The notes under the pieces are model-generated. The model saw only the letters and a list, made by a program, of their open reading frames with translations. It was not told where the DNA came from and searched no databases. From the NCBI RefSeq assembly GCF_033568475.1, contig NC_133122.1, positions 18,656,206 to 18,720,205 on the forward strand: 64,000 bases of DNA, given 5' to 3'. The DNA is from Henckelia pumila. Lineage: Eukaryota; Streptophyta; Magnoliopsida; Lamiales; Gesneriaceae. The translations under genes and the position numbers were made by a program. Shown in pieces: positions 17,935 to 60,774 of the stretch; position 1 is the stretch's first letter, and every line of letters starts with the position of its first letter.

Positions 17935-17961
17935 ATACGGCCTCCGGGTATTAGCTTTCAC

Positions 17962-27819: not shown

Positions 27820-27839
27820 TATTACTAATATGAGTAACA

Positions 27840-30492: not shown

Positions 30493-30634
30493 GGGTTTTT
30501 TAAATAAATATAATAAATTTTAAAAAAACTTAAACAAATATAACAAATTTTAAAGCTTTTAAAAAATATAATAACGTGAGGTTTGAAACCCCACTTTCTT
30601 GAAGATCTGGGGTTTGAGACCCCGACTCCTCATT
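30493..30634 (+). repeat. Left TIR of MULE 2
   Basis: 142 bp, inverted match to 38580-38720. Contains two GGTTTGA(A/G)ACCCC words. An (AT)n tract follows at about 30688-30719, mirrored by (AT)n at 38525-38561 on the other side. Confidence 0.8.
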
Positions 30635-30680
30635 TGTTATTTTCGAGGAGTCGAGGTTTGAAACCCCTACTTCTCATAGC

Positions 30681-30725
<45 letters not shown>

Positions 30726-31131
30726 AATATTAATTCTTTTCATTAATATTTTTTAGTTTTATATTTACAGATTTAATTGTTTTTGCAAGTTAAAAAAAAT
30801 AATTATTATGATTAAAAATTTATTATTTGTTTAAAATTTTTATAATACAGTTGAACTTTTATAAATTAATAATATAACGATGATGATATTTTAATAATTT
30901 AAAAATTCATTAGTTAATCGATAAATTAATAAATTATTATTTATAGAGTATTGTTGATTCAAAATGAATATAGAGATTAATTATATAAGAAAATTGTGTT
31001 TTATTAATTTTCATAGATTTATATAAGAGTCTTCTAAATCGAGATTGAAAAATTATTATTTTCATAATTAATAATTATAAAAAGTATTTTTAAGGTTTTA
31101 TATGCATATATGTTTTTCCTATTATAAAATT

Positions 31132-32329
31132 TAGAATGAAATAAAACGATAAAATAAACTTTCATAAATTTAATTTTTGATAAATTAATAATTTTTATAA
31201 AAGATAATTTTTTTCAATCTCGGCTCGGATTGATATGTTAAATTAATAGTTTTAATAAATTAATAAGATTATAATTTTTTTTAGAAAAACTCTTATAAAA
31301 ATTTATGAAAATAAACATATATAACCAAAACCACGTTCATTCAATCAAAAAATAATTTTTAAAATAATAATTTATTAATTTATCTGTTAATTGATATCTT
31401 TCTAAAATTGAATATTATTGATCAAAATATTATTAATTTATAAAATTTCTACATCATTGTAAAATTCCAAAAATCTAAAATATTATTAACTTTCGTTTTT
31501 AAAAAATACTATTAACCATATTAATCACTTTTCAAACATGTAATTAATAAATTGAAAAATAAATAAACAAATGTCTATCTACAATTTCCAGGAGTAACAA
31601 AATATATTCTTTAAAATATTAATTTATTAATTCATCGATTAATCAAAATTTCTCTAAATTAGTAAAATATTATTATTATATATTAAGAATTTTCCCGTAG
31701 ACGCCATATTTTCATTTATCGAGATTGATCTTATGTGTTATAAATATTACACTTTTATTTTATTAGTTTTTTTCTAAAATTTCGATATTTCAAATTTTTA
31801 TATTTTCTCAACTAAACACTATAGATAAGATAAATTGATAAATAAATTTTAAATTTAATTTTTAAATTATTATATAAATAAAAAATAAATTTAAATATTA
31901 TCGAAAAAAGAATATTTATACATAACATATAATATTAAATATATTATATAATTTTATACACACACAACGTGTGTGTGCGATTATGCTAGTTATTTTATAA
32001 AGAGAATATGGTCAAAATGTTCTTGTATATTTACTCATTTTGTGTTTTGGTCATTTAAGTATTTAATTTTGGATATTGGTCCTATAACTTAAGTTATATT
32101 TTGGTTTTAGTCTTTTCTTCATGGATTATCGACGTGAAATTAGAAAATGATGACGTGCCAACTAAAAATTTTTCACGGCATTGAAAAATGATGATGTATC
32201 TGTTGTGGCATCAATACTTAAATGTCATGTTTTCAAAATCAGATTGGACCAATCGGTTCAACCGGTTCGACCAGGAATCGGTCACCGGTCTGGTCTAAAA
32301 CACTCCAAAAAACCGTTTTAACCGTTCAA
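31132..32329 (+). repeat. 1.2-kb direct repeat in MULE 2, copy 1
   Basis: Matches 36698-37857 in the same orientation from TAGAATGAAATAAAA to AACCGTTCAA, with small indels. It includes a Helitron-like 3' end (CACACACAACGTGTGTG ... CTAGT, CTAG at 31986-31989) and the start of an ACCGGTTC-rich repeat. The repeat frames 4.4 kb of unrelated DNA. It is not an LTR pair by its ends. Confidence 0.85.
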
Positions 32330-33569
32330 AGTAATGCTTTATTGGTTCAAAGCATTATATGACATGAAAAATAATGCTTTATTGGTCCAAAGTATCAAAT
32401 TTTATGCCAAAAGTATTACTCTTTTGGTCAAACGTATTACTTGGAAATATATGACTTTCATATTAAAAAAATGTTGTTTTGTAATCTATGATTATGATTT
32501 TATTTTTGCCAAAAGTATTACTTGGATATATATTGTTAATTTACATGAAAATATTTTTTTGGTCCAAAATATAATTTTTTATGGCAAAAGTATTAATGTT
32601 TTGGGCAAAAGTATTACTTAAAAAATATATGGTTATATCACATAAAAATATTGATTTATAATATATGATTGTGAAAAGTATTATTATTTTTCAAAATAAT
32701 TAGTTTCTATACCAAAAGTATTACTTGAAGGGAGCGTTTGCGATCACTAAAAAAAAGTGATTGTTAGCTTTTGGCTTAAAAAATTTATTTTTGTGTGTTT
32801 CTTAAACGTAGATCATGTGTTAGCTTATGCTTAACTTAATTGAAATCCAAAAGCTAGTCATGTGGTGATTATGATTCTCCAAAAGTGATTCTAATAAGAA
32901 GGTCATTGTTAAAATCACTCTAATCACTTATTTATCAAACACTACCCAACTTTGATTTTTAGATTTTCACATTTGTTTCCAAACACTACCAACTTTTGAT
33001 TTTTCTTAACTTTTTTATAATCTATAAATTAATCACTTCTACAAAAGCACAATCTATTGTAAACACTCCCGAAATATATGATTATTTCACATAAAAAATA
33101 TTATTTGTTTGACTAAAATTATTGCTTTTTTGAGTAAATGTATTACGTTTTCTAGTAAAAGTATTATTTGGAAATATATGGTCGTCCCCTGAAAAATATT
33201 ATTTTGTAGTATATGATTATGAAAAGTATTATTATTTTTTCCCAAAGTATTACTTATTTAGACAAAAAATGTTAATTTTATGCCAATAATATTACTTGAA
33301 AATATATTATTATTATTTCAAAATATTATTTTTTGACCAAAAATATTACTTGGAAATATATTTTTATGTCAAATAAAAATATTGTTTTGTAATCTATAAT
33401 TATGAGAAGTATTATTTTTATGATCAAAAGTATTAATTTTATGGACAAAGATATTAGTTTTTATATCAAAAGTATTATTCTGAAATATATTGTTATTTCA
33501 CATGAAATATATATATTAATTTTTTTGACCAAAAGTACTAATTGAAAAATATGGTTATTTCACATAAAA

Positions 33570-33600
<31 letters not shown>

Positions 33601-33660
33601 TATTAGCATCATTACTTTTTGAGAGATTGTGATTTTTACAAGAAACTTGTACTGAAATAT
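32330..33660. repeat. Degenerate AT-rich repeat array
   Basis: Words such as CAAAAGTATTACTT, GGAAATATATG and TTTCACATAAAA(A)TATT recur many times at irregular ~60-80 bp spacing, so the stretch is a decayed tandem array. One MITE (32730-33070) interrupts it. An (ATT)n tract lies near 33567-33602. Confidence 0.6.
32730..33070. mobile_element. MITE, 341 bp
   Basis: Ends GGGAGCGTTTGCGATCAC and, reversed, GGGAGTGTTTACAATAG; GAA flanks both sides (32727-32729, 33071-33073). Inner inverted words AAGTGATT / AATCACTT occur. Non-coding. Confidence 0.6.
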
Positions 33661-34207
33661 ATGGAATCATAAAAAGATTAAACAAGAAAAGTTGATCTCA
33701 TTGTCAACTGATTGTTTATCAACTTTGGCATTTATAACGCTCCTAAGGGTGCAAAAATTTTGGCGAGCCATATCAGTCAAGTCAAGCTATGTGAATTGCT
33801 GAACTCGAGAGTCAAGTTCAAACTATTTCGTAGATTTTTTTAATCTCAATTAAAGTAGAATTTTAATATAATAATATGAGTACAAGTACACTTGTTAAAC
33901 AAGCTCATGAGCTGGAGTTTTTTTTTATTTGTCAAAGCTAAGATCACTCAACGAGATTAATCAAACTATAATTCGAAACAAACTAGAGTACAAATTAGTT
34001 CTTAAAAGTTCGAGCTTGAGCTCTGATTTGCGTTCTACTGTAACAAATTCAACCATGCATAAGAGCTGCAGTTAACTCCATGCCGCTGAATAATATAAAC
34101 TGGCAGCACCATCCATTAGCCTCTTCCCCCATCTGTCGCCTCTGAAGCTAACGTTAATCCACACTTCATCCTAATTGCTGACATTGAGAATAAGAGAAAT
34201 CTCACCA

Positions 34208-34816
34208 TTAACCCAACAAGGCATCCATCAACATATTTTTTTCCCTAAATCCAATGGTCTGAAATGTTAGCCAATAAGAACCTATACGCAGCATCCCCCA
34301 AGAATATTCAAAGAAGGTATCCAAATCATCAAGATAAGACCAAATACATTGTGGTGTACGTAAGTTGCTAGCTAAAAACAAAACACAGTTGAATGCAAAC
34401 AAAATAAAAAACCTAACAAAGTCATCTACATCTTGATCAGACTTCTTGTCAGCTAACTCAATAAGTTTGGTAGATATAGCATCCCTATCACCGATTGATC
34501 GTTTCCCTTGGAAATATCGATCAAGGAAATCTGAACCCAAATTAAGATCTAGGTCCACAGGCTGCCTAGCTTGAGGCAACCCTAAAACAATTGAAAAATA
34601 TGTAGTAGTAAATGATACATTAATATCGGACCCAAAACGAAAGGAAGCGTTTTTTGTTTCTGCATTGAATCTTTTCAGAATGAAATCAAATCTTGTATTA
34701 AATATGGCTAACTTTGGCATCTCCAACCATTCTGCAACTGGTGTGTTAGAGATTCTCTTACGTATCTTTTCACCAAGCTTTGACAATAAAATTTTCATCA
34801 CATCTATAAAAATCAT
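34208..34816 (-). pseudogene. Fragment of Ulp1-type MULE protein (N-terminal domain)
   Basis: About 200 codons matching the first exon of the Ulp1-like gene of MULE 1: PVAEWLEMPKL, FILKRFNAET, YFSIVLGLPQARQPVDLDL, DFVRFFILFAFNCVLF and SYLDDLDTFFEYSWG line up in order with PFSEWLKIPNL, VLKRFDVQS, FSIVMGLKYIGQPVNIDL, ARMFILYLFNCVIF and PYLDDLDLFFYYSWG. After YSWG the match shifts frame, so it is decayed. No peptidase exons follow. Roughly half the residues match, so it comes from a different branch, not from MULE 1 itself. Confidence 0.75.
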
Positions 34817-34925
34817 TGGAGAATACTTAGAAAAACATCGTTTCTTACTCTTTCCACGCCCCTTATCAATATCATCAACATTCTTTCTTTTACTTTACAT
34901 TTCTGAAGGATAAAAACGAATAATC

Positions 34926-35290
34926 ACTACAATAAATTTGGGTATCAACAACACATAAAAGACAACGGTTTTTTCAAAAACCCATTGTCTTTTAGATTTT
35001 AACAACGGTTTTATTAAAAACCGTTGTTGGCCATATTTTAATGAAAAAAGACAACGGTTTGTAAAAAACTGTTGTCTTTTATATGACAAAGACAACGGTT
35101 TTTGAAAACCGTTGTCTATGAGCGGGCTTTTTATGGCCTATGACAACGGTTTTAATTAACCGTTGTCTATGTGCGTTTTTTTCTTTGTCTACGACAATGA
35201 TTTTTAAAACCGTTGTGTTTTTGTGTTGTTTTATAGAGTCAAACACAACAGATTATGTTAAAGTGTTGTCTTAACTTTTTTTTCTTTAAA
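34926..35290. mobile_element. CACTA-type terminal fragment
   Basis: Starts CACTACAATAAATTTGGG and continues with inverted and direct copies of ACAACGGTTTT / AAAACCGTTGTC (at least eight), the subterminal repeats seen at CACTA element ends. I found no partner end ...TAGTG with the same sequence, so this is one end only. Confidence 0.55.
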
Positions 35291-36110
35291 ATAAATAAAT
35301 AAATAATAATAATAATAATAATGCCGGATCTGGGCCTTCCTTCTTTAATTTTCTCAACCCATTCTTCATTCGTCTCACGCCTGCGCCCTTCTCTCACAAC
35401 TCTCCCAAAACCTAACCCTAGCCGTCACTTCTTGTCGTTGATTCTTTACCACCGGCATCGGAATGTGTGTTTGGAGCTAGAATTCGGTTATAGATCGTCC
35501 TAAGGATGTGATGAAATTTGTTTGTTTAACATGCAACAAACATGTTGTAGTGAAGAGGAAGCAAAGAAAAAGATATATTCAGTATTTACCAGGGCTTTTA
35601 TCAAAGCGTTTGGCGCGTTGATCTCGGAAGAACTCTCCAACAAGGTCAAAGGTAGTTACTAAATGTTTAACATTTCCCCTGTATATCAGGATCCATGAGT
35701 AACAGGTTTTGGGCTTCTTGTTGATAGAACTTCCCGGTGTTTTATGGGTATTTCCCGATTTGTATTTCAATGTCCTCTGGAAGGACTATGGAGGTTGGTG
35801 GTGGTTTAAATAATTATCCATCGTTCGGCTTCTACTTCTCTTACACCTTATGTATCGTGGGGGGAATCATTTACAGGAGATCTCTTTGTTGATGGAAAGG
35901 TCATTCATAGGCCACCATATATATAGACGTAGGGAGACGATGAGTTTTCAAAGGAGAGAGGCCCTTGCCTCAAATACAGAAGATGGCAACAAAACTTGAA
36001 GGCAGGTGTAATCTGGAATCCTTTGTGATGAATGGAAAATCTCAGCTCTTTGGCCAATGTTAAGACTGTTTGAAGGTACTGATTTAGGTGTTTTTGCTAT
36101 GTTTTCACGG
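35291..36110. other. Gene-like fragment, identity unknown
   Basis: An (AAT)n tract is followed by GC-richer sequence with leader-like CT-rich text (CTCCCAAAACCTAACCCTAGCC near 35404) and several exon-like stretches without a continuous frame. I do not recognise the protein. Its base composition and place inside MULE 2 suggest host gene pieces carried by the element (Pack-MULE-like), but that is inference. Confidence 0.35.
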
Positions 36111-36235
36111 TGACTTTGGTTGGCAAGGAATCACTTTGTTTTTGTTTTTTTTCTATGGCAAGATCATCATTGCTCATTTGTTGTGTCATATTCTCCAATT
36201 CAGTAAGTAGCCGTCAAGTTAAGGTGGGTTGGTTT

Positions 36236-36382
36236 AGTACATGCCGCCCGCAGGACACTACTCTGCGGGTGACGTGTAATCTCATGATTGGTCAAAATGA
36301 ATGGGTTCCATGTGTGGTCACTGATTTTAACCAATCATGAGTCGTCATGTCACCCGCAGGGCACTACCCTGCCGGTAGTATC
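36236..36382. mobile_element. Foldback MITE
   Basis: GTACATGCCGCCCGCAGGACACTAC... at the left is inverted at the right as ...GGGCACTACCCTGCCGGTAGTATC; inner words CATGATTGGTCAAAAT and ATTTTAACCAATCATG pair too. About 147 bp. Confidence 0.7.
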
Positions 36383-36697
36383 GACTCAACCATGAAATGG
36401 ATGTTGTTGCAAGGGATGAATCAATTGTGGTTTTGATCGTGGGGTTTGATTTTGTATGGCTGTTTATTCAGTTTTTTTTTAAGCAAACAACGAAATGCGC
36501 GAGCATGAAATCTTCCCATTATAACACGATTAGGTCAAGAGCCATAGTCTATAGATGAAATCTACTAGTACTTGTCACTAAATTTATCGGTAAATAAAGT
36601 GCAACATTTTACCTCGTGCCACCTTGTACTTTACCGGATCACTGAATCCATCAGCCCTCGAAATGCAAGCAATTATATGTTCCATGAATATATGTGC

Positions 36698-37857
36698 TAG
36701 AATGAAATAAAAGGATAAAATAAACTTTTATAAATTTAATTTTTGATAAATTAATAATTTTAATAAAAGATAAATTTTTTCAATCTCGACTTGGATTGAT
36801 ATGTTAAATTAATAGTTTTAATAAATTAATAAGATTATAATTTTTTTTAGAAAACCAAAACCACGTTCATTAAATCAAAAAATAATTTTTAAAATAATAA
36901 TTTATTAATTTATCAGTTAATTGATATCTTTCTAAAATTGAATATCATTGATCAAAATATTATTAATATATAGAACCTTTAAATTATTGTAAAATTCCAA
37001 ACATCTAAAATATTACTAATTTTCGTTTTAATAAAAATACTATTAATCATACTCGTCACTTTTCAAACATGTAATTAATAAATTGAAAAAAAAAAAAAAC
37101 AAATGTCTATCTACCAATTCCAGGAGTAACAAAATATATTTTTTAAAATAATAATTTATTAATTCATCGATTAATCAAAACTTCTCTAAACTAGTAAAAT
37201 ATTATTATTATATATAAAGAATTTTTTCGTAGACGCCATATTTTCATTTACCGAGATTGATCTTATGTGTTATAAATATTACACTATTATTTTTATTAGT
37301 TTTTTTTCTAAAATTTCGATATTTCAAATTTTTATATTTTTCTCAACTAAACACTATAGATAAGATAAATTGATAAATAAATTTTAAATTTATTTTTTAT
37401 ATTATTTTATAAATAAAATAAATAAATTTAAATTGTTATCGAAAAAAGAATATTTATACATAACATATAATATTAAATATATTATATGATTTTATATACA
37501 CACACGATTATGCTAGTTATTTTATAAAGAGAATATAGTCAAAATGTTCCTGTATATTTACTCATTTTGTGTTTTGGTCATTTAAGTATTTAATTTTAGA
37601 TATTGGTCCTATAAGTTAAGTTATATTTTGGTTTTTAGTCTTTTCTTCATGGATTATCGACGTGAAATCAGAAAATGATGACGTGCCAACTAAAAATTTT
37701 TCACGGCATTGAAAAATGACGATGTATCTGTTGTAACGTCAATACTTGAATGTCATGTTTTCAAAATCAGATTGGACCGATCGGTTCAACCGGTTCGACC
37801 AGGAATCAGTCACCGGTCTGGTCTAAAACACTCCAAAAAACCGTTTTAACCGTTCAA
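36698..37857 (+). repeat. 1.2-kb direct repeat in MULE 2, copy 2
   Basis: Second copy. The Helitron-like hairpin is shortened here (CACACACGATTATGCTAG). The ACCGGTTC repeat that is cut off in copy 1 runs on in this copy to about 38305, so copy 2 keeps the ancestral right border. Confidence 0.85.
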
Positions 37858-38305
37858 CCGACCAGAATCGGTCAAGAACCGACTAAGAACCAAAAAATCG
37901 ATTTTTTGATTTTTTTTTAAAAAAATAGTTTTTTTATTTTAAAACCTTAATTTAATATTTTATTATATATACATGGTTATTTGGAATTTTTTTTTCGTTA
38001 AAAATATTATTTTATTAATATTAGAGTTTTTTAATTAATTAATTAATTTTATAAAAAATATATAATTATAACTAATATTTTGAATATATTTATATAGTTA
38101 TTTATTTTTCAAACGACGATAAATATATTTTTTTCCATTTATATAAATTTTTTAGGTTTTTATAATTTAAAATATATTATTAATTATATTAAATTATATA
38201 AACGATTTTTTGGTTTGACTGTGCGGTAAAAAAATTTGACCGATTGGATCGTTTTTTTAAATTAGACCAGTTCGATCACTGACCTGGTTATAAAAATATT
38301 GTTTA
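37757..38305. repeat. ACCGGTTC-rich repeat with inverted ends
   Basis: Left part AGATTGGACCGATCGGTTCAACCGG and right part (reversed) GATCGAACTGGTC ... GATCCAATCGGTCAAA are related in inverted orientation; the interior is T-rich. Probably a MITE. A left-truncated piece also ends direct-repeat copy 1 (32240-32329). Confidence 0.4.
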
Positions 38306-38521
38306 AATAAAAAAAGACTAAATATCAAAACATAACTTAGCTTACAAAGCCAAAATCCAAAATTGAATACTTACATGACCAAATCACAAAACAAAAAAAC
38401 GTACAAGACTATTTTGACTATTATTCATTTTATAAAAGTTCAATTATTACAAACTTTTTCCAAACATGTAGAACAACTATAGATGCAAATATAAAATCAA
38501 AAAATAATAATGGTAAAATTG

Positions 38522-38570
<49 letters not shown>

Positions 38571-38579
38571 TGTATATAC

Positions 38580-38720
38580 AATGAGGAGTCGGGGTCTCAA
38601 ACCCCAACTCCTCAATGAAGCGGGGTCTCAAACACCATGTTATTATATTTTTTTAAAATTTTAAAATTTGTTATATTTGTTAAAATAAATTTAAATTTAT
38701 TATATTTATTTAAATAACCC
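38580..38720 (-). repeat. Right TIR of MULE 2
   Basis: 141 bp, reverse complement of the left TIR with moderate divergence, next to the TSD TACAATGCTT. Confidence 0.8.
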
Positions 38721-40350: not shown

Positions 40351-40396
<46 letters not shown>

Positions 40397-40401
<5 letters not shown>

Positions 40402-40536
40402 TTTGCTATCCTGCCCACTCACTGTGCCACCTAATATACCCCTCATGAGGTGGCACTCAACTATTGGATGTGATGAATTGTGCGTCCAATAGTTGAATGT
40501 CACCTCATGGTGGGTACATTATGTGGGCAGGATAGC

Positions 40537-40543
<7 letters not shown>
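40397..40543. mobile_element. Hairpin MITE inside an (AT)n microsatellite
   Basis: ACAATTTTGCTATCCTGCCC at the left is inverted at the right as GGGCAGGATAGCAAAATTAT. Inner arms GAGGTGGCACTCAACTATTGG / CCAATAGTTGAATGTCACCTC also pair. Long pure (AT)n tracts flank both sides (about 40352-40396 and 40544-40582), so it inserted into, or carries, a TA microsatellite. Confidence 0.75.
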
Positions 40544-40588
<45 letters not shown>

Positions 40589-40850
40589 TGTAATAGGAAA
40601 CGATTGCGTATGGCTATAATATCATCATCATCGTTATTTATTCTTTAATTTTTGAACAACTCATACATATTTTTTTAATAAAAGTTCAAACTTTGGATGT
40701 GCCGCATGAGCCAAAAGATTGTACATATTTGGTCAGTTTATAAAATATGAGAAAACCAATTTTACTCGAGGTAAATTAAATGCTTATGATTTTTCCAACA
40801 AAATTAAAAATTTAGGAATGTGTTTCGTAAATTGATAAAAATTAATATAA

Positions 40851-40985
40851 GAGTCAATTGTGAATAAATTCCTAAACCCAAACCTAACTTTTTTATAAAT
40901 CCCTACAATAAAAATTCTTTCTTAAAACTCCCTAGGACCACCAAACTTGTTCAAATCTAATGTTTAATTCTTGTACCCAATTTAT
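40851..40985 (+). repeat. Left TIR of the virus-bearing MULE-like element
   Basis: Inverted relative to 48625-48761, roughly 70% alike by eye. The outermost bases are GAGTCAATTGTG against GGGAAAATTATT on the other side. Confidence 0.7.
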
Positions 40986-41050
40986 GCATTTATGTACTCC
41001 ATTTATGCAATATTTGTGCTCAATTATGGTACTTGAATCATCCGCAAAAA

Positions 41051-41062
41051 TGGTATCAGAGC
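41051..41062 (+). other. Pararetrovirus primer site (tRNA-Met)
   Basis: TGGTATCAGAGC, complementary to the 3' end of plant initiator tRNA-Met; marks the conventional genome start of caulimovirids. Confidence 0.85.
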
Positions 41063-41599
41063 TTTAGGTTAAATATTCAGACTTAATATTATTCGTTAAC
41101 TCATATTTTTTTTTGTTGAGGAGAAGATTTTTTACAAAAGATGACTTCAAACGAAGGTTTGAATCAAGAGGATTTTATTTATATGAAATCCTATAAACAA
41201 GTTAATTTGTTCACAATAGATTACTTACGACAGAAAGATGATTTCTAACTCTTAATTTTTAGAAATTACCCCAAATTCCTCTAAACTCTCCGGAGATCTT
41301 AAAAAAAATTCAAAAGACGGTACAATATTACAGCAATCAGTTGTATGAAATACCTCGGCAGATTGAAGGAATCCTTAAGAAACAAGAAGAAATTCTTGTA
41401 ACCCTAAAAGATCTTCAAACTAAAATCACAAATCTAGAACAAACTTCAGGTTCTAGAAAAGGAAATACAGGAGGAAGGTTACCACTCTCGTTTGGTACCG
41501 AACCGTTGTTACATCAGAAAGGTAAAACCAAAATGGTTCAAAAACCTTTAACTGATGATGAAAGGATGATTAATCTTATAAAAGCAGTATCAGAGAAAA

Positions 41600-43000
41600 A
41601 CACTATCTGATGACTACTTTAGAGAGATTAAATCTCGAGGATCTACAAGATCTCGCGGATTCTTTTGCGAATCTCAAAGTAGTAGATCTAAAAATGAACT
41701 CCCCTGAGAGTGAACAACCCATAGGGAATCCCCTAATATATGTGGTTAAAACAGAAGAACCACATAATGAGTTTCAGGTTGGAAAAAATTCACATCCAGC
41801 AGGAACCAGATCAAGAAGGAGTAAAATCCCACTCCATCAAACTCCTTATGGAAAAACTGTTTTAGATCCAATACATCCTTACGGGGTTATGTTAAACCTT
41901 GATGTTTTGGACTTCAAAAACAGAGAAGATCTTATAGATGATTGGACGTCAGCTATGAGAATTGCAGCAGGGACATTAGATCTCAATAAAGAAGGATTCA
42001 TTAAACTTCTAGAAATGAGTCTAATGGGATCTGTCAAGATTGCTTGGGAGATGACTATGCTAGATACAAAGAAATCAATCTTAGCAGGAGAATTCCTCAG
42101 CGAAATTGGAGAAAAAATGGCCACCCTATTTAAAGCACAATTCATAGGGGTAGACTATTTCAACAATCAAGATACAGAGAAAAAGAGAAGATATACTCAA
42201 GCTCTGTATAGCCTCGAGTTACATGATATCTGTTTAGTTGATGAATACATTATGTTATTCACTAAATATAGATGGAATTTAGGAGTCGAGAAAAATGTAG
42301 CTATTCAGCTATTTTTCGCAAAAATGCCAAGTCCCTGGAGAGAAATGTTGATTAAAGAATACGTTCCAGGTCATCTTGACACTTTGGCAAGACGCGCGTC
42401 CTTTTTGAAAGGAAAATTGGCAGAATGGTGCCATATGGCAGCATTACAGAAGAACTACAAGAAAATAAGGGGTATAAATAAACGTACACCTTTATGCTGT
42501 AAAGATAATGATCTTCCAACGATCATTGGAAACAGATCACAGGGATTTAAAAGGAAGAAATTCAGAAGTAATCCCTACAATAAAAGAATGAGAAGTCCTT
42601 GTAAACCAAGAACAATTTGGTCCAAACAAAAGGCCAGATCTTATAGGTCAGGAAAAAGAAGTGGACCTACAAGAACATCCCCAGTAACAAGCTCATTACA
42701 AAGCAGGGGAAGAACACCATCAAGAAGAACTTTCAGAAGAACTCATACAAGAGCAAGTGAAAGTTTCAAGGATTGCAACTGCTGGACATGTGGAGCAAGA
42801 GGACATATATCTACAAATTGTCCAGAAAACGAGAAAAAAGGAGTTAAACTCTTTGAAGCAACACCAGATATGAATGATGCGGTCTTCTTTCAAGATCTAG
42901 TCCAAGTATATCAATTTGAGGATATCCCTTCAGATGAAAGCATATACGAAGAAGATATATTGTTTAGTCAAGAAGATTCTGAGGATGGATCAGAATCAGA
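41600..43000 (+). other. Capsid protein region of the pararetrovirus
   Basis: Fossil coding region. A basic Arg/Lys/Ser-rich stretch precedes a CCHC zinc knuckle (CWTCGARGHISTNC), then an acidic C-terminal tail rich in Glu, Asp and Ser, the standard order of caulimovirid capsid proteins. A short leader protein with a heptad-like region (ILKKQEEILVTLKDLQTKI) lies just before it. Confidence 0.8.
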
Positions 43001-43299
43001 ATCAGAATAAAGAAGAAGTGTTTCGGCATGAAACACATGAAAGTTTGGCTGGATTCTTTAGCCAAAATACGATATCTCATAATATGGTCCAAAGGATTAT
43101 GAGAAAAAATCCAACGTTACAAAAGTACCAGGGATTTTTGACAGGACAAGTAGAAAGAGTCTTAGGCAACCTAGGGCTTAGACAAAGAAGACATAATTTG
43201 ATTTACAAAGTATCCAGAAGGGAAATGGCAATCTCCATGGAGTTAACAAGTAATCAAATATAGATGCAGTTAATTCCTTTTGAAGAAATAAGAGAGGAA

Positions 43300-44100
43300 T
43301 TGCAAAAGTTGAAAGGTGAGGTAGCAAGGACGATGTCTTGGATTCATATTGGAGCAATCCAAATAATGATCAAGGCAACTTTTAAAGAAGGAATAGATTC
43401 ACCCATAGATATCGTAGTATGCGATAAAATAATGGGGAATATTCAAGATGCTGTCCTGAGTACTATCTCAGGAAATCTTTGTGCAGGAAAAATTGTAGGA
43501 GTTATCTATCCAAGAATAACCTACAATTTAGCTGACAGGGACTTTAGTCGAGCCTTGACGTTGCATCAAAACTTCAAGGAAAAGAGACTGATGAAGGAAG
43601 GTAATAGACCATATTCTATTACATATCAAATTTCATATGCTCTTTCTAATACTCATCATTCTGAATTATTTATTAGAAATGAGTTCATTGAAATTCCAGA
43701 GATCTTTGGGAAAGTTGCTCATGCAATATACCCAAAAAGAATCGAGTTTCCTTTAATTCAGAAAACAGACATTCAAATTCAAGACAGATCGGTTCTATAC
43801 AGAGACCTTAAAATAGAACCTCGAAGGTTATCTTTTCAAGGAAACCGAATGACAAGTAGGAGATGGGACAAATCTCCTATTCAAGAAATTCCACCAGAAG
43901 AAAAAGAGTTTTCTATAATAGGAAAACTTAGATCTCCAGAAGGATGGAAAGAAGTGAAAATAGTATTCGATATTACAAGTCATCGGAACCAGTTCCCTTG
44001 TAACTCGATTTACTATTTGGAACAACATGAAAAAGGAACTTACCAAGGATTGATAAATATTGGAGAATTGGAAGTTCAAATATGTGGAATTCCAAGAAAA
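43300..44100 (+). other. Movement protein region of the pararetrovirus
   Basis: Fossil region related to the 30K movement protein family: WIHIGAIQIMIKATF, GIDSPIDIVVCD, a later SGNLCAGKIVGVIYP and the YSITYQISYALSNTHHS block are in the order seen in caulimovirid movement proteins, which in live viruses act at plasmodesmata. Confidence 0.75.
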
Positions 44101-44549
44101 GATGTGGATCAGCTCATTCTTGGCCTAGAGTTTCTGGAGGATCATAAACCATGGAAACGCCTTGAAAAAGGAATAGAGTTTATGGCAAAAGAAAAGACTT
44201 GGAGGATTCAATAAGAATTCTACGAAATGAAAAACCAAGAGAATTGGATAAGGGTCAATCCCTTAATCAGATTCGAAAACTCTGTTTACAAACAGAGGAA
44301 GAAGCAACTGTTAAAATTAGTAAGTCATGAACATGATTTACTAGAACGCATTGAAGACGTAGAAAGGAGTAACCATACTCTACCTTCTGAAGCCTTAGGA
44401 AGACTAAAGGTGAATAGTCTTAATCGGATTACTGAGTTACAACACAGTCTGTTAAAAATGGCAGGGCCATTTAGTAATCCCTTTAAAAAATGGCAACAAG
44501 TTCTTTCTCCATATACATTCCGATAGGGATGTTGTATGAACAATATAAG

Positions 44550-46450
44550 GCTGAATACTTTGCAGCTTATATCGATTCGGGAGCAGGAATTTGTACAGCA
44601 AAAAGAGGAGTCTTCCCTGAAGAATGTGAAGAAGATTTGCCAAAAATTGCTGGACGGGATTTCTCTCGAAGAATTTTAATTCTTTGCAAAGGAATAAAAC
44701 AAGCAGAGATCCTTATGGGAGGAGCAGGGCAGACACCTTGATACAAGGTAAAGACACCACCAATCTATTTCCATGATACAGGAGCTGAAATCCTGTTAGG
44801 AAATAACTTCTTACAAATGTTTAAGAAGTACACACAAGACAATGAGTCAAGAAGACTTATGTTCACTACAATTTGTGATCATAAAATTATCGTTCAAAGA
44901 CTCAAAGTTGATTTTTATCGACAATTGCCGATAATATTTCGCAGCCAGCGTGGTGATAAAGGACAACTTTTTCACCCAAAAATGAAAGATCCAAGGAGGT
45001 TTGGAGAAACCATGTTGAAAATAACAACAGAACAAAAACTCCAAACAGAGGATATGGAGTTTCTCAAGGTAACTCTACATCACAGAGATATAGAGTTAGA
45101 AAATAAGGTATCCCTTGAAGATGTCAAAAAGAGGCTCAAAGAAAGTTACAACGAGCACCCTTTGGCATGGTGGGATAGAAATCAACTCAAAACCAATCTT
45201 ACTCTAAAGGAAGGCAAAGAGTATGAATTCGTCAGATATAAGCCTATCCCAATGAACATAACAGATCAAAGGGATATGAGAATGATTATCAAGGAACATT
45301 TGGACTTTGGTCTAATCAAAGAAGGAGTTTCACCATATAGCAGCCCAGGATTTCTGGTCAGAAATCATGGTGAAATAAAAAGAGGAAAACTCAGGTTAGT
45401 TATTAATTACCAAGGTATTAATAAAATCCTGGAGTTTGATGGGTACTTCATACCCAGTAGAGAACATCTAATTAGCTATGTACGAAATGCTAGAGTGTTC
45501 TCAAAATTTGATTGTAAGTCTGGATTCTACCAGATAAGAATGGAAGAAGGCAGTAAGAAATTCACAGCCTTCTCTACTCCACAAGGACACTATATTTGGG
45601 AAGTTATGCCTATGGGATTGACCAATGCACCCCAAATATTTCAAAGAAAGATGGATAATCTTTTTAAAGATTATTTCAACTTTATGTTTGTTTATATTGA
45701 TGATATTCTTATAGCATCAAAAAACATAGACGAACATGTTAAACACTTAGAGATTTTCTCTAAGATTTGTAAAAAAAAAGGACTGGTTTTATCTGAAAAG
45801 AAAGCAGTCATAGCAACAAGGAAAATTGAATTCCTTGGTATTGAGATTGATGAAACTGGAATAATTCTACAACCCCATATTGTGGAAAAGGTAAAAAATT
45901 TTCCAGATAAACTCAAAGATGTAAAACAACTCCAGAGTTTTCTAGGAGTAGTTAATTTTGCAGGGATGTTCATAAACAACCTAGCAATGTACAGAAAGGT
46001 GTTCAGTCCTTTGTTAAAAAAGGATGCCAGGTTTATATGGACCGATGACCATACTAAAGGGGTAAACCAATTAAAGGAGATATGTAAGAATCTCCCAAAA
46101 ATGGCTATACCCGTAGATGAAGATGATCTGATATTATTCACAGATGCCAGTGATGATTGGTGGGCAGCTGTCCTTACCAAGATCACTCCAGATGGAGAAA
46201 TACCATGCAGATACTGTAGCGGTCTTTTTTCAGAATCAGAGGCCATCAGATGACATATCAACGAGAAGGAATTTTATGCAGTTAAAAGGGCTTTTGAAAA
46301 ATGGCCATTATTTTTACTTGCTAAAAAATTCACGCTGAAGGTTGATAACACCCAGGTAAAAGCTTTCTTAAGAAATAAAATTGAATCTAAACCTGAGAAA
46401 GCTAGGTTATTAAGATGGCAATCATTATGTCAAAATTATATTTTGATATT
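44550..46450 (+). other. Protease, reverse transcriptase and RNase H of the pararetrovirus
   Basis: Fossil pol region. Protease active site AYIDSGAGICTAK near 44570; reverse transcriptase with SKFDCKSGFYQIRM, PMGLTNAPQIFQRKM and the catalytic FVYIDDILIAS (about 45500-45720); RNase H from ILFTDASDDWW near 46135. The RT motifs are of the pararetrovirus type, unlike the gypsy RT at 7400-8050. Confidence 0.85.
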
Positions 46451-46599
46451 GTTATTATTAAATCTCATGAAAATATTCTTGCAGATTTCTTAAGAAGAGA
46501 TGGAAGGCAGTGGCGTGGATTCCATCATGAAAATGCAGAGGCATCTCAGGGAACACCTTGGGTTACTTCAAACCGAGTTCAACCAGTTAGTCATTAATG

Positions 46600-47840
46600 C
46601 TGAAATGGCTGGTAGGTTACAACAAGCTGATCAGATCAAAGTATCTAATCGAATTACTAGATGTATGCAAGCTCAAACTCAACTATGGGCTGCTATTCAA
46701 GGGCCAATTGTTAAGGCTATAGAGAAACCATTGGTTTCTCATAAACAGAAAAAGTTAAAACCATTGGTTTTACAAGAAGAAAAAACACAGCCACTGGTTG
46801 TAGAACAAAGGGTTGAAGATTCCAAAACCCAAGAAACAAGTGCTAATCTATCATCAGCTTTTGATGAATTGGATGAAGAAACAATTGATGAGAATAATTC
46901 ATCAAGTCAACCCTCTGCCTCTGGGGTAAAAGAGAAAGAGATCAATCTTAGGCCCAATACTGACAAGGGTAAATATAAGATTGATACTAATCCAGCTATT
47001 ATTTCTCCATTCCAGGTTTATCAACAGAAGTGGGAGAAATTAAAGACAAGGAGTGAAATCAACCCAAACACTTGCAGGGTTGATGTTGCAGGAATATATC
47101 CAAGGGTTTGGCTAAAAAACAATGTCAATCCTAAGGATGTAAAACTCTGGTATGAATTTGGGGCTTTGGCCTCAGTTTATACAACGTCACCAAGCTTCCC
47201 GGAGATATCACAGTTACCAAAATGGATCCAGGAAGCAGTCCAAAAAAATGGACAAATAATGATCATTTGTCAAGAGGAGATGTGCTAGAACTATATTTAT
47301 TTAGTGCAGCTCCAGAGCCAACAGGGAAAGGATCACATGAACCCTTTCATTTCATCAAGCTAAGGAGACCTGATATGACGGGCCATAAATTTATCAAGGA
47401 TCCTAAAGCTGAAGAAATACCTTTGGTGTCCACTTTTGGAGAAAATGAAATCTCAACCAGAAGGGCATGGGGTATTTGGGTCTGTCTCACCGAGATGGAC
47501 AAAGTCAAATTTTCGTTCAAATTCTACCAGAATTCTGTGAATGGATCGTTCCTGTTAAATACAATGACAGGAAAAACTACAGCTTTCGCGGAAGAACTCT
47601 TCGAAAAGAAGAGAAACTTTTTGTGGAACAACAAGCTGCCGGGGAGTAAAGAAACTCGCCAAAAATTTTGTAACATGGCTCACATAGGAAGATGGTCTGA
47701 GGTTATCTGCCCAGAATGTTCTGATCAGAAGGAGCCAGAGTTCGGAAAAACATTCAAACCCCGAACGGATCGAAAAGATTTTTTTGAGACAAGCAAAGGT
47801 GGACAGGGACCACCAAAGATGCGTTTTTTCAGGGGACCAA
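46600..47840 (+). other. Transactivator-like (inclusion body) region of the pararetrovirus
   Basis: Downstream of RNase H, where cavemo- and solendoviruses encode the transactivator/viroplasmin. I recognise the position and some motifs (FQVYQQKWEKL, RAWGIWVCLTEMD) but not a complete domain, so the label rests partly on context. Confidence 0.55.
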
Positions 47841-48086
47841 TGTAAAAGCAGAAGATGCCCCGACAACAATAAAGAAGACATGTGAGGAGCATAAATCCAA
47901 AAGAAAAAGGACGACATGTGACTCATCCACCAACAAACAATGTCATCAATAATGGCATAACAGGACAAGGTGAATAATGGGTGACTCATCTACTAGCTAA
48001 ATATGCCATTAATAATGGCATAAAAGGACAAGACAAACAGCTGTAAGATTCCCTGAAGTTTCTCGGTGAAACGAGTGGAACCTCAG

Positions 48087-48153
48087 CTATAAATACAAGC
48101 GTTCAAGGAAGCTGAAGATATCGATCATTCCCTTCAGTTTTCTTACAAATAAA
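48087..48153 (+). promoter_or_regulatory. Pararetrovirus core promoter and polyadenylation signal
   Basis: CTATAAATA at 48087-48095 fits the TATA box of the pregenomic RNA promoter, and AATAAA at 48148-48153 the polyadenylation signal a short way downstream. About 450-500 bases of leader-like DNA follow to the right border, including a possible hairpin AGTTCGGCTTAGCCTGAACT near 48583. Confidence 0.6.
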
Positions 48154-48624
48154 TTGTTATAATATTTCTCTTTCTATTGATATAAGTTTTCGTTTATGTA
48201 TTTCAAGAACAAGGCTACTATGAGTAGCTAAACAAGTTGTCTTCTCCTCTTCAAAGGAGTTGATTTATGTAATAATATTATGTCTGAATAATTTTTCTAA
48301 AGTCTCTTGTTCTTTCATGCTCATATTTTATAATTAAATTCATATACCATACGCCTTAAGGTAGAAAACGAATTAAGGCTGTGCTGGGTGTCGTTGAAGG
48401 AGCTTGTGCAGAAACCATCTGTTGCGACTGCGTGGTTGGAGTGTGAGGAGCACTTCGTAAAACTCGGCAGGTATGACCCGACGACACTATGGTCAAAGAG
48501 GTTTTTGAATTTAATTCATCTTACGGAAGCATGTTGGACCCTAATCCAGAGTATATCGGCTGGAAACCTTGCGTAACCGATAGTTCGGCTTAGCCTGAAC
48601 TGGTTCGATAGGTAAAACAATGCC

Positions 48625-48761
48625 ACGTACAAAGGATTAAATGTTAAACACTTTATTAAGACAAATTTGGGGACCACTAGGGAGTTGAAACAAAGAAATT
48701 GGAGTGTAGGGAGTTAAGAGAAAGAAATATTTGGGTTTGGGGATTTTAAAATAATTTTCCC
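48625..48761 (-). repeat. Right TIR of the virus-bearing MULE-like element
   Basis: Partner of 40851-40985, ending GGATTTTAAAATAATTTTCCC next to the TSD. It loosely resembles MULE 1 TIR text (AAATCCCC, ACTCCCTA), but the alignment is too weak to place both in one family. Confidence 0.7.
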
Positions 48762-48921
48762 TTAATATAACCCGTATAATTAATAATTATTTATTTATTT
48801 TCATTGAGCCATGAAAGTCAGAAAACGTGCTAATTAACTCTAGCGGGATTTGTTAGTTATAGATCATTTAACGCGTATACTCTTCAATTTTGTGAAATTT
48901 ATTTTTAACTTTTAGAAATAA

Positions 48922-53319: not shown

Positions 53320-55420
53320 GAAAAGCTAGAAGAGAAGAGTTGCAACAAATGGCTGAAGAAAGAGAAAGAGAAAGAGAAAGAGTTGTCAATAATGCTCTGG
53401 TGCCTATCAGAGATCACTTTCGACCGGTGATCAATACTCATTATTCTGGGATAGCTCGGCAGAATATCACAGCAAATAATTTTGAGTTGAAACCATCTTT
53501 GATTAATATGGTGCAGCAGAATCATTTTAGGGGTGCAGCTACTGAAGATCCATATTTTCACCTGCGTACTTTTCTGGAGATTGCTGACACAGTAAAGATT
53601 CATGGTGTTACTGAGGACACCATCAGACTACGATTGTTACCGTTCTCTCTTAGGGACAATGCTCGTAGTTGGTTGCAGTCATTACCTCTTGGGAGTATCA
53701 CTACATGGGAAGACATGACATCTAAATTTCTGGCTAAGTACTTTCCTCCTGCCAAGTCTGCTCAGCTGAAAATTGAGATCACTACTTTCAAATAGCAAGA
53801 TTTTGAGCAGCTTTATGAAGCTTGGGAGCGGTACAAGGAGTTGCTTAGGAAGTGTCCAAACCATACTTTTCCGGATTGGGAACAAATTGAGTTATTCTAC
53901 AATGGTTTGAATGGCCCAACGAGGATTTCTGTGGATGCTGCAGCTGGAGGTTCAATATTTTCTAAATTTCCTGAACATGCTTATGAGTTGCTTGAGCAAA
54001 TGACTGTTAACAGTTATCAGTGGCCGAGTGAGAGATCTGTAATAAGGAAGTCTGCTGGAATTCATGAGGTTGATGCATTCACTTCTTTGACTGCTCAGAT
54101 GGCTACTATTTCTATACAGTTGGCTGCACTGACCAAAGGCAATCAAGTTTCTATTAAGACAGCATCGCTGGCGACTGCCGTAAATTGTGCTGATGGATTT
54201 GAGAGTCTGGAGCAAGCTCAATATGTGAACAACAGAAATTACAACAACTATCGAGGTAATCCTGTACCCAATCAATATCACCCTAGTCTGCGTAATCATG
54301 AAAATTTTTCTTATACTAACAATAATAATGTGTTGAATCCTCCTCCGGGATACAATACAAATAAGGGTGAGGGTAAGCCTCCTTTGAAGGATGTTGTTAA
54401 TGCTTTTGTGCAGGAATCGAGCAAGAGGATGGCGAGGACTGAGACTCGCCTTGACAGCTTAGAGGCGCATGTGGCCAACATGGGTGTTGTATTGCAATCC
54501 ATGGAGACTAGCATTGGGCAGTTGGCGAACGCACTGAAAGATAATAACAGAGGCCAATTCCCAAGTAATACTGAGGTGAATCCCAAGGAGCAGTGTAATG
54601 CTATCACGTTGAGGAGTGGGAAGCAGGTGGATAATGAAGAGGCAAATATGAGAGAAAGAAGTCTGAAAAAGTTGCAGTTGACGAGAAGAAGGTCGAGGAG
54701 AAAGAGTCTGAACCTGAGCAGAAAACGATGTACAAACCTCCTCTTCCATACCCCCAAAGGTTCAAGAAGAAGGCAGTGGACGAGCAGTTCTCAAAATTCT
54801 TGGAGATTTTCAAGAAGATACATATCAACATCCCTTTTGCTGATGCTTTGGAACAAATTCCGAATTATGCGAAGTTTATTAAAGAGGTGATGTCCAAGAA
54901 AAGGAGGCTGCATGAGAATGAGGTGTTGAGCTTAACTGAAGAATGTAGTGATGTGCTCCAAAAGAAGATGCCACAAAAGCTGAAGGATCCAGGGAGTTTT
55001 ACTATTCCTGGAACTATTGGTTCTTCTTATTTTAATAATGCACTTTGCGATCTAGGAGCTAGCATTAATCTGATGTCTTTGTCTATTTTCAGGAGCTTAG
55101 GACTTGGCGAGGTGAAGGCCACAATGATCGCATTGCAGCTAGCTAATAGATCTATCACATATCCGCTTGGAATCATTGAAGATGTTTTGGTAAAAATAGA
55201 TAAATTTATTTTTCCGCCGGATTTTGTTGTGCTAGATATGGAAGAGGATGCAAATATGCCACTAATATTGGGGAGACCTTTCTTGGCCACTGCTGATGCC
55301 AAGATTGAGGTGAAGAATGGTGAGTTGTCGATGGGTGTGGACGGAGAAAGAATTATTTTTAACATATTCAAGAAATCAAGTAATCCACCCATCGAGGAAT
55401 TATGCATGATTGAGCGAGTT
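53320..55420 (+). other. gag and protease region of the Athila-like element
   Basis: Fossil coding. The gag capsid part has FRGAATEDPYFHLRTFLE and LRDNARSWLQSLP (about 53500-53700); later DSLEAHVANMGVVLQSM is a coiled-coil region. The retropepsin-like domain has CDLGASINLMSLSIF and NMPLILGRPFLATADAKIEV (about 55040-55315). The chain ends in a Lys-rich tail. Confidence 0.85.
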
Positions 55421-58357: not shown

Positions 58358-59615
58358 ATTGACACCGTCTGTGGGAACGAAATATAAACCCATGATTTAT
58401 TTCTACTTGATTTATTTCTACTTGGTTGAATTAAGAAAAGAAAAGAAAAATCATAGGTGCACGACGGCACCTATGACTCCCAGCATCTTCCATCGGAAAA
58501 TCAAAACAATTTCCTTGGCTGCAAATCGAATTTTTCGCCAAGTCCGCACTTTGTTTAACCCACTCATGCAAACCACGAGATGCGTGATAAGCGGCTTACA
58601 CCTGCGCCATGCCACATCTACTCTAGAATTCTACCCGTGTCTTTTCTTCCCAGAGCACACATTCTGCTTCCTCATGAATTTATCAGGTATCCTTTTTACT
58701 TAACAATTGGCCACCTTTACTGTCGAGGTCACCACGGATGGACATGATCCGAACCAACATCTTTGCCTTTTTTGCTCCTCTTACAACTCACCTCCCCGTG
58801 TCCCAAGGCCGACCCCTCCCACTGAGAACTGCCGTTTGGTCGTCGGGATGCTTGAAAGAAAACAACAATGATTCTCTCGTGGGTCTATACATTGTCGCTC
58901 CTCGTCGTTCCCTCCCATGAAACTTACTTTTTGTCACTTTCTCTAAATTATAAGGTGATGTTCTCCAATTATGCCATTTGTTACTTGGTTGGATAAGTCT
59001 TGTTTCAAATTTTTAAAGAGCTAGGAAAGTGCATAAATATGAACCAGATATGTGTTGCATAGCTTTGGTCTCATGTGGTTTTGTTGTTCTCTAGTATGCG
59101 TTGTGTCCATAAAACTTTGTGATTTTCTATTCTCCTTAATCGAGTGCATATAAGGTGTTTGTTGGTTCTCCCAAGTAAATTTCAGGATTTAAAGTGCTAT
59201 ATGGAGGTCTAATTTGCAACTGCCAAGAGATATTCAATGAAAGGGCAAAACAAAAAAAAAAGCATACTCTCAGATGAAAGCCCACATCGGCTATGGACTT
59301 TAGCGCGTAAGTCGGGATGGGACATACTACAATATTGTCATGTCACCTTTATCAAACAACATTGCAAATCGGTGCCCACCAAAAATTCCAAGCACATTGG
59401 ACTCCGCTATGTTGCTTGCCTGTCATAAAGGATAACTCTTAATTTTATATTATATGTTCCATGAATATATGTGCTAGAATGCACTGTTCATTAAGGAATT
59501 GCACTTATTCATGGGATATCTCGTAATAAATCTTTTTTTTATATGAGTCAATGTGTTTAATTAACCCAATATTATATTGTACTTCTATTGTCTTGTATTT
59601 TGTTTGGGCCTTTTT
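58358..59615 (+). other. LARD interior, no gene seen
   Basis: Non-coding interior following the primer-site-like sequence; open frames up to 129 codons show no recognisable domain. Confidence 0.5.
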
Positions 59616-59617
59616 TA

Positions 59618-59855
59618 CAGACATCGGGCATGCAATCTCGCTGTAAGGCCCAATTATATTACATCGGACATGCAATCTAGCTGTAAGGCCTAATTATATC
59701 ACATCGGGCATGCAATCTTGCTGTAAGGCCCAATTATATTACATCGGGCATGCAATCTAGTTGTAAGACCCAATTATATCACATCGGGCATGCAATCTAG
59801 CTGTAAGGCTCAATTATATCACATCGGGCATGTAATCTCGCAGTAAGGCCCAATA
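59618..59855 (+). repeat. Minisatellite, ~40-bp unit, six copies
   Basis: Unit CATCGGGCATGCAATCTCGCTGTAAGGCCCAATTATATTA, starting near 59622, 59662, 59702, 59742, 59782 and 59822, with 0-4 changes each. Confidence 0.9.
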
Positions 59856-59879
59856 TGTGGTTCAACACTTCACAAAGCC

Positions 59880-60660
59880 CAGACAGGTCTGACACTCAAA
59901 GTCCACGTCAGTGACCCACATCAGTGGTATACAAAGCCCAGGCAGGTCTGACACTCAAAGCCCACTTCAGTGGCCCACATCAATGGTATGCAAAGCCCAG
60001 GCAGGTCTGACACTCAAAGCCCACTTCAGTGGCCCACATCAGTGGTATACAAATTCCAGACAGGTCTGGCACTCAAAGTCCACTTCAGTGGCCCACATCA
60101 GTGGTATAAAAAGTCCAGGAAGGTCTGGCACTCAAAGCCCACTTCAGTGGTATACTAAATCCAAACATGTCTGGCACTCAAAGTCCACTTCAGTGGCCCA
60201 CATCAGTGGTATTCAAAGCCCAGACAGGTCTGCCACTCAAAGTTCACGTCAGTGGCCCACATCAGTGGTATATAAAGCCCAGACAGGTCTGGCACTCAAA
60301 GTCCACTTCAATGGCCCACATCAGTGGTATACAAAGCCCAGACAGGTCTGACACTCAAAGTCCACTTCAGTGGCCCACATCAATGGTATTCAAAGCCCAG
60401 ACAGTTCTGGCACTCAAAGTCTACGTCAGTGGCCCACATCAGTGGTATACAAAGCTCATGCAGGTCTGGCACTCAAAGTCCACGTCAGTGGCCCACATCA
60501 GTGGTATACAAAGCCCAGACAGGTCTATCACTCAAAGCCTACTTCAGTGGCCCACATCAGTGGTATACAAAGCCAGACAGGTCTCAAAGTCCACTTTAGT
60601 GACCCACATCAGTGGTATTCAAAGCCCAGACAGGTCTGTCACTCAAAGTCCACGTCAGTG
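59880..60660 (+). repeat. Minisatellite, ~59-bp unit, about 13 copies
   Basis: Unit around TCAGTGGTATACAAAGCCCAGACAGGTCTG..CACTCAAAGTCCACTTCAGTGGCCCACA. Period 59 with some shorter units (near 60150 and 60610). As 59 is not a multiple of three, the same peptide-like words (HISGIQSP, HQWYTKP) appear in shifting frames, so the long open frames here are repeat artefacts. Followed by short CATCAGTGGCATCAAAA repeats to about 60755. Confidence 0.92.
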
Positions 60661-60774
60661 GCATCAAAAATCCACATCAGTGGCATCAAAAGCCCATATT
60701 AGTGGCATCAAAAAGTCCACATCAATGGCATCATAAATCCACGTCAGTGGTATTCTCCAAAGCCCAATCAAGTT

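Follow-up and report, generated by a model that had tools for sequence, protein, structure and literature searches.

An endogenous caulimovirid family in Henckelia pumila with Mutator-type inverted ends and 9-bp target duplications

We analysed a 64,000-nucleotide stretch of the Henckelia pumila genome (NCBI RefSeq assembly GCF_033568475.1, contig NC_133122.1, positions 18,656,206 to 18,720,205), hereafter the window, in whose coordinates all positions are given. It contains an endogenous caulimovirid of ~7.9 kb, laid out as TTAATATAA + 40851-48761 + TTAATATAA, whose viral interior lies between two inverted arms of the kind found at the ends of Mutator-like elements (MULEs). Its features are listed below with the evidence for each; the window MULE is a resident element of the same window and lineage F a relative of the element, both described further on.

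40842-40850, no strand: left target site duplication TTAATATAA, directly outside the left arm; other copies have other 9-mers
40851-40969, plus strand: left arm, MULE-type terminal inverted repeat with first bases GAGTCAATTGTG; from alignments, 18 of 27 terminal bases equal to either MULE repeat
40970-41050, plus strand: presumed part of the pregenomic RNA leader, from left arm to primer site; within the predicted duplex with 48238-48448, diverged in lineage F
41051-41062, plus strand: primer-binding site TGGTATCAGAGC; from the sequence motif, with the identity step of lineage F falling here
41058-41129, plus strand: presumed leader stem, 3' side; complementary to ~48238-48310
41610-43010, plus strand: coat protein (CP) open reading frame (ORF) with zinc knuckle; PF22909, E 3.6e-6, zf-CCHC slightly below the cut-off
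43264-44214, plus strand: movement protein ORF; PF01107, E 9.5e-25
44490-44741, plus strand: aspartic protease ORF, partial; PF02160, E 4.7e-5
44817-46253, plus strand: reverse transcriptase (RT) and start of RNase H; PF00078, E 1.5e-35, and PF17919, E 1.3e-10
46500-47845, plus strand: transactivator/viroplasmin-like region; from homologues and a fold search of one homologue
48088-48094, plus strand: TATA-like box of the presumed pregenomic promoter; from the motif, pointing outward past the right end
48238-48310, plus strand: presumed leader stem, 5' side; from complementarity; in 48188-48337, lineage F agrees at 148 of 150 columns
48642-48761, minus strand: right arm, MULE-type terminal inverted repeat; from alignments, 19 of 27 and 17 of 27 terminal bases equal to the window MULE repeats
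48762-48770, no strand: right target site duplication TTAATATAA, directly outside the right arm

The perfect 9-bp duplication just outside the arms was present as described in the first-pass annotation. That annotation had also put the arms at ~135 bp; they are inverted as it said, but the length was slightly generous, since 40851-40969 pairs with 48642-48761 over ~120 bp. An ungapped repeat search gave 72% identity across 88 nt for the inverted arms, the gapped local alignment scored 316 vs. a maximum of 283 among 3000 order-1 shuffles, and blastn of arm against arm within the window returned E = 5e-11. The probability that two random window 9-mers are equal is 2.4e-5, and 3 of 55,902 flank 9-mer pairs were equal. 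A chance origin of the arms and the duplication was ruled out by the shuffle test, the blastn E value and the duplications of other copies. The arms were also ruled out as part of a long terminal repeat (LTR) because they are inverted; all end repeats detected in the element were of this inverted type and none was of the LTR type, as in Caulimoviridae. Read from outside inward, the right arm begins with GGGAAAATTATT in the window copy and with GGGCAAATTATT in 18 of the 23 copies aligned.

The interior is a near full-length caulimovirid, as had been proposed, with coat, movement, protease, RT/RNase H and transactivator-like ORFs; the Pfam matches cover the caulimovirid-type RT/RNase H, movement protein, coat protein and aspartic protease that characterize Caulimoviridae. 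The closest match to the RT region was a 77% protein and the closest named matches were polyproteins of Sesamum genomes, while the best named relatives of RT and transactivator came from Sesamum, Salvia and Perilla genomes, which belong to the Lamiales, as does the host. The transactivator-like region occupies two overlapping frames in the window copy (46500-47288 and 47222-47845), and 21 homologues of 46500-47285 were found. The fold predicted for one of these, P0121, is a weak model (mean pLDDT 50); all 12 named proteins among its top 14 matches were caulimovirid transactivator, ORF VI or inclusion-body proteins. Scanning the IMG/VR viral collection returned no relatives. The virus is presumably solendovirus/cavemovirus-like in its genus placement.

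None of the 20 ORFs of at least 60 aa in the insert matched an integrase or transposase family in Pfam, the scan yielding two weak DUF matches (E 0.011 and 0.029), so a transposase would have to act in trans. The ORF of the transactivator region was considered as a hidden transposase and rejected: its Pfam matches were unconvincing (best E 0.0096, seen in 1 of 13 homologues), PDB yielded nothing up to E 1, and the fold search led to caulimovirid transactivators.

The primer-binding site, which we take to be of the tRNA-Met type, lies in what appears to be a long structured leader. The two halves of the leader stem match by blastn at 73% across 71 bp in inverted orientation, and the predicted leader duplex scored -93.0 vs. 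-60.5 +/- 7.5 for shuffled sequences (300 shuffles, lowest -87.8). The halves sit 7 kb apart at opposite ends of the insert, which is what a circular virus would leave if it were opened within its leader. In circular form, the halves would make up the base of the leader hairpin, with both arms at its top. The promoter of the linear insert lies near the right end and reads outward, so that genome-length RNA would require a circle.

We searched the genome (884,658,702 bases, or 885 Mb, in 133 contigs) with both arms; all copy counts include the window copy (copy 1, L001, L101). The best 40 of 809 candidates for the left arm were scored and were 95-100% identical; the element starts with GAGTCAATTGTG in 25 of these copies, with GAGTGAATTGTG in 11 and with a one- to three-base variant in 4. 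Their flanks differ, save for a few duplicated loci. Copies 5, 6, 12 and 13 (L005, L006, L012 and L013), which lie on C1 and C2, have an identical left flank and represent either one insertion that was later duplicated or an insertion within another repeat. All 20 left-arm loci examined run on into virus, with the full 1500-bp viral reference matched in 18 (the window itself and 17 at 95-98%); similarity ends at 41259 in L014, and L017 has a gap following the primer site. For the right arm, the best 40 of 773 candidates were 96-100% identical, and at 28 of 30 loci the arm is followed by the viral tail. An exact pattern for both ends occurred at 198 places in the genome vs. 0 for the reversed control. 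Examination of 100 of the 198 places revealed 13 correctly oriented arm pairs at most 25 kb apart, of which 11 were spaced at 7.76-7.95 kb, one at 5.2 kb and one at 18.2 kb. The annotation had offered a virus landing in a very short MULE as one explanation, for which empty short copies would have been telling. Among these 100 places, located with a pattern that omits the partner ends of lineage F, we saw no empty copy a few hundred bases long, and no arm pair was shorter than 5.2 kb; with virus adjoining the arm at nearly all loci on both sides, this explanation found no support.

To score target duplications, the right end was sought at the expected place for all 40 left-arm copies and was scorable there in 22. 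Five further copies were scored through right arms located elsewhere in the right-arm search, giving both ends in 27 of the 40, and an intact right end was not located in the other 13. A perfect 9-bp duplication, the commonest length in MULEs, flanks 21 of the 27 copies. This falls within the 7-12 bp that a review gives for MULEs (PMC10741241). The first set contributed 17 of 22, with 16 different sequences, and the second set four of five, the fifth matching at 8 of 9 positions. Copies 3 and 20 have a common flank and are one locus with a 7-bp duplication; copy 33 has an indel, and copies 19 and 38 were unmatched. The target sites are AT-rich with a palindromic tendency. The further loci with virus, arms and mostly different 9-bp duplications that the annotation had suggested looking for are thus present, and its original observation is confirmed and larger in extent than first noted. 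Since many copies combine virus-arm continuity with different 9-bp duplications, the arms and the virus insert as a unit. It is as good as certain that they have done so many times, with fixed ends and mostly 9-bp duplications.

Two deeper lineages, D and F, whose arms have diverged but are of like type, extend the family. Lineage D was discovered as an 86% match lying head to head with a copy of the window family (lineage A) in L112, where the D and A right ends face each other 365 bp apart (L112:1135-1501) as two separate insertions at one spot. The best 40 of 704 candidates for its right arm scored 96-100%, and a left end stood at the expected distance in L164, with 7 of 9 bases of the duplication matching. 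Lineage F came from a third end class, which accounted for 29 of the 100 pattern places examined; 40 copies scored 96-100%, and the perfect 9-bp duplication TTATTTTTT flanks the one copy for which both ends were read.

Lineage F differs from the window copy in an uneven manner. On the left, the arm is equal in 94 of 121 columns and the stretch from arm to primer site in 57 of 124, while from the primer site onward 325 of 337 columns are equal, followed by 98% identity over the next 600 bp. On the right, the end of the transactivator region is 82-92% identical, the stretch before the promoter 62-76%, 48188-48487 ~97% and the right arm 74-84%. The right arm and the sequence from the left arm to the primer site make up a divergent block that is continuous only in circular form; its limit, the primer site, is where reverse transcription starts. 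From how reverse transcription works, template switching during that process would be the simplest cause of the pattern.

The window MULE (768-19176) is autonomous and 18.4 kb long; its terminal repeats are 97.7% identical over 130 bp, longer inverted repeats are also present, and the element with its flanks (759-19185) shows a perfect AT-rich 9-bp duplication, TTATTGTAA. It carries a transposase ORF (2493-3689) and further ORFs with a SWIM zinc finger (11353-12138) and DUF1985/plant-mobile-domain likeness (17263-17973). A Ty3-type retrotransposon, with direct repeats from 3661 and 9864, is nested within it. We compared the terminal 27 bp of each family end with the left and right terminal 27 bp of this MULE, using 40000 random window 27-mers as controls. 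The left arm of lineage A matched at 18 and 18 of 27 positions, reached by 0 and 0 controls, and its right arm at 19 and 17 (0 and 2 controls). The lineage F left end also gave 18 and 18 (0 and 0 controls) and its right end 17 and 15 (0 and 62), and the left end of lineage D gave 16 and 16 (6 and 13). MULE-related terminal inverted repeats were thus found for lineage A and, more weakly, for D. Insertion of the family in the manner of a MULE is very likely. In lineage D, the left and right arms are more alike (0.74) than D and A arms compared crosswise (0.65-0.67), while within-lineage similarity shows no clear excess in A (0.69) or F (0.64); coevolution of the two arms, seen in lineage D only, was not used as support. 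Elsewhere in the window, 119-nt inverted arms, 84% complementary, lie 7.9 kb apart at 30516-38698, with direct repeats 5.5 kb apart and a weak DUF1985 match (34208-34894) between the arms; this is perhaps a further MULE-like element.

We then asked what selection had acted on the viral genes. RT and CP pieces of the same 20 copies were compared with the window copy (c29 was dropped from 21), and fixed differences were counted among subfamilies A, B and C, with copies 28 and 33 of the 21 in none. The subfamilies are star-like, with RT terminal branches of ~0.6-3%. Plant sequences change at ~7e-9 substitutions per site and year, at which rate these branches correspond, only roughly, to one to four million years. 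Private changes, meaning those confined to a single copy, were near neutral (RT transitions 1.22, transversions 0.80; CP 1.07 and 0.59), whereas changes found in at least three copies were not (RT 0.29 and 0.12; CP 0.54 and 0.36). For RT, private changes were 165 nonsynonymous (N) to 54 synonymous (S) vs. 27 N to 44 S among changes in at least three copies, and Fisher tests of private vs. shared changes gave p = 2e-8 for RT and p = 0.03 for CP. Fixed RT differences among the three subfamilies had N:S counts of 5:21, 8:27 and 5:33, or omega (the N to S rate ratio) of 0.04-0.08. In CP, the fixed differences were 7:13 between A and C (omega 0.15) and 4:11 between B and C (omega 0.10). In single-copy comparisons with the window, RT of lineage F was 95.9% identical with dS 0.145 and omega 0.15, and RT of lineage D had omega 0.27. 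Inserted copies therefore decayed near neutrally after insertion, while differences between subfamilies were under purifying selection, which is shown for RT and less fully for CP. Copy 33 (L073, L053, L096 and L146) groups with subfamily C in CP and with B in RT; it is possibly a mosaic between subfamilies, although the signal was weak in a sliding comparison.

The same arms occur in all three subfamilies, with perfect 9-bp duplications in each. Combined with the purifying RT differences, this indicates that the lineages that seeded the subfamilies had a working RT while they carried the arms. Constraint is clear for RT and less so for CP, and it seems that the arms are part of a viral lineage that replicates rather than being attached to a passive passenger. 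The annotation's second explanation, that Mutator-type ends had taken up viral DNA and so given it a way to move and multiply, is thus supported for the joint movement, given the 21 of 27 perfect duplications, but cargo is too modest a term for the virus, as RT and, less clearly, CP show purifying selection.

We consider it probable that the window element is a member of a large endogenous caulimovirid family whose genome bears MULE-type termini and which moves through a circular form and a transposase provided in trans. The best reading of the selection and recombination results would be replication by reverse transcription with the arms aboard. In the replicating form, circular DNA would join the right arm to the left; both would fall within the pregenomic RNA leader and could make up the distal part of its hairpin, and new genomes would be made by reverse transcription. 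A MULE transposase, putatively supplied by a resident autonomous MULE, would recognise both arms, cut between them and insert the linear genome. Excision by the transposase could in turn yield the circle that is needed for genome-length RNA. We also favour, a little less firmly, the view that this is a virus with a proviral stage, which keeps Mutator-type ends in its RNA leader and which the host transposase inserts and possibly releases, an arrangement that would have been kept through A, B, C, D and F with a functional polymerase.

The alternative that we take most seriously, though we regard it as unlikely, is Pack-MULE-like capture: a non-autonomous MULE would have taken up a single viral genome as dead cargo and then multiplied only as a DNA transposon, through a transposase in trans. 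Fixed ends, 9-bp duplications and MULE-like termini would all follow from it, and it would also accommodate the star-like, near-neutral bursts within subfamilies, the neutral first CP sample described below, the failure to find an arm-arm junction and the lack of a transposase family among the 20 insert ORFs. However, the captured DNA of Pack-MULEs is passive and drifts. Dead cargo would thus drift neutrally, whereas in this family RT is under purifying selection (CP being mixed): the fixed RT differences are purifying, as are those of CP for A-C and B-C, and the deeper single-copy RT comparisons give low omega values for both F and D. Nor would one expect the F pattern, in which the divergent block hangs together only in circular form and reaches just to the primer site. 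In an improbable variant, a circulating relative that had always lacked the arms would have renewed the dead cargo through repeated recombination. The mosaic composition of lineage F, perhaps that of copy 33 and the constraint between subfamilies are consistent with such exchange, but it requires several exchanges, each of which kept both arms. It is very improbable that the arms do no more than form the tip of the viral leader hairpin, and that a viral or host integrase unrelated to MULEs made the insertions. In favour of this, the arms are complementary and lie beside the leader stem, and in lineage D they resemble each other more than they resemble those of A; against it, the terminal repeats of a resident MULE are similar to the terminal 27 bp in lineages A and F (reached by 0 to 62 of the 40000 controls), the 9-bp duplications lie within the MULE range given in PMC10741241, no integrase family was found in the 20 ORFs, and arm similarity within lineages shows no clear excess in A or F. 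Chance insertion of one virus copy into a single short MULE would account for the window copy alone and is refuted by virus beside the arm at 20 of 20 left-arm and 28 of 30 right-arm loci and by the many different duplications, leaving it next to no probability.

Several observations weigh against a replicating, arm-bearing family. The right end of lineage D resembles the window MULE weakly (15 and 13 of 27, reached by 29 and 633 controls). Two exact patterns for a joined right-left arm junction, as in a tandem or circle, had 0 genome matches. When eight right-arm loci were tested from the right side, the left end was readable in three, with one perfect duplication, one of 8 bp and one in a T run; in L118 the left arm was present with its end beyond the sequence examined, and in the remaining four of the eight the expected place lacked a left arm. 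L115 and L122 are one locus duplicated at 99.6%, in which the right arm meets non-viral DNA at the equivalent of 48614, representing either a rearranged copy or a relative without virus. Very AT-rich targets make some duplications weak, such as ATATATATA in copy 37. Endogenous caulimovirids are already known to favour (TA)n sites (PMC10377300), and (TA)n runs occur at 40352-40584, ~260 bp left of the insert, within a 72-nt inverted repeat. As for selection, the subfamilies were defined on the same RT and CP pieces that were used in counting, fixed CP differences between A and B were 5 N to 1 S, one RT stop change was common to at least three copies, and a first CP sample (copies 1-20, without subfamily C and with L014 and L017 dropped) was neutral throughout. 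Lineages D and F were each compared through one copy, and CP of F vs. the window gave omega 0.98 on 9 changes. The leader at 48067-48466 is 95% alike in lineage D, so that conservation, and not exchange alone, may explain part of the F pattern.

The family shares with Caulimoviridae a length of ~7.9 kb, the CP, movement protein, protease, RT/RNase H and transactivator-like protein, as well as the primer site, the promoter and a long, structured leader. It differs in that its ends are fixed, its arms are inverted and of MULE type, and 9 bp of the target are duplicated. As an exception, a review (PMC10741241) cites Petunia vein clearing virus, which has an integrase-like core. Terminal inverted repeats, a 9-bp duplication, dispersed copies and a transposase presumably acting in trans are features of MULEs and Pack-MULEs, whereas the arms here enclose a reverse-transcribing virus, near full-length and showing signs of selection on RT, in place of a transposase or host gene fragments. 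Teratorn of medaka, a herpesvirus joined to a piggyBac transposon, has its own transposase gene. It is similarly a virus bounded by DNA-transposon ends with target duplications (PMC10175614); the present family, in contrast, is a reverse-transcribing plant virus with no transposase gene among the 20 ORFs scanned. LTR retrotransposons and Troyka also combine reverse transcription with insertion that leaves a target duplication of fixed length, given as 4-6 bp and 3 bp, respectively (PMC12440569). They have LTRs, while this family has none, duplicates 9 bp and has no integrase that we could find in its ORFs. Reverse-transcribing replication with transposon arms would be what makes the family new, and no earlier report of a caulimovirid or pararetrovirus with Mutator-type ends was found in titles and abstract openings of the open-licence literature.

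The window holds three further features: three related UDP-glycosyltransferase gene pieces on the minus strand (20044-29194), a match resembling snoR71, also on the minus strand and located within the gag ORF region of a retrotransposon (53764-53868), and tandem repeats in which a 59-bp unit adjoins a 40-bp unit (59581-60668).

The entry of caulimovirids into plant chromosomes and their multiplication there are described as speculative or unknown in two reviews (PMC10377300; PMC10175614). The family offers a concrete and testable route into chromosomes, in the form of a virus that has MULE-type ends and 9-bp duplications and in whose ORFs we found no integrase, and many insertions are available for study, given the 198 exact matches to one end pattern. 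It illustrates a way in which borrowed transposon ends could provide a virus with a proviral stage. If the proviral-stage view is true, the lineage would be a mobile element of hybrid nature, part class I and part class II.

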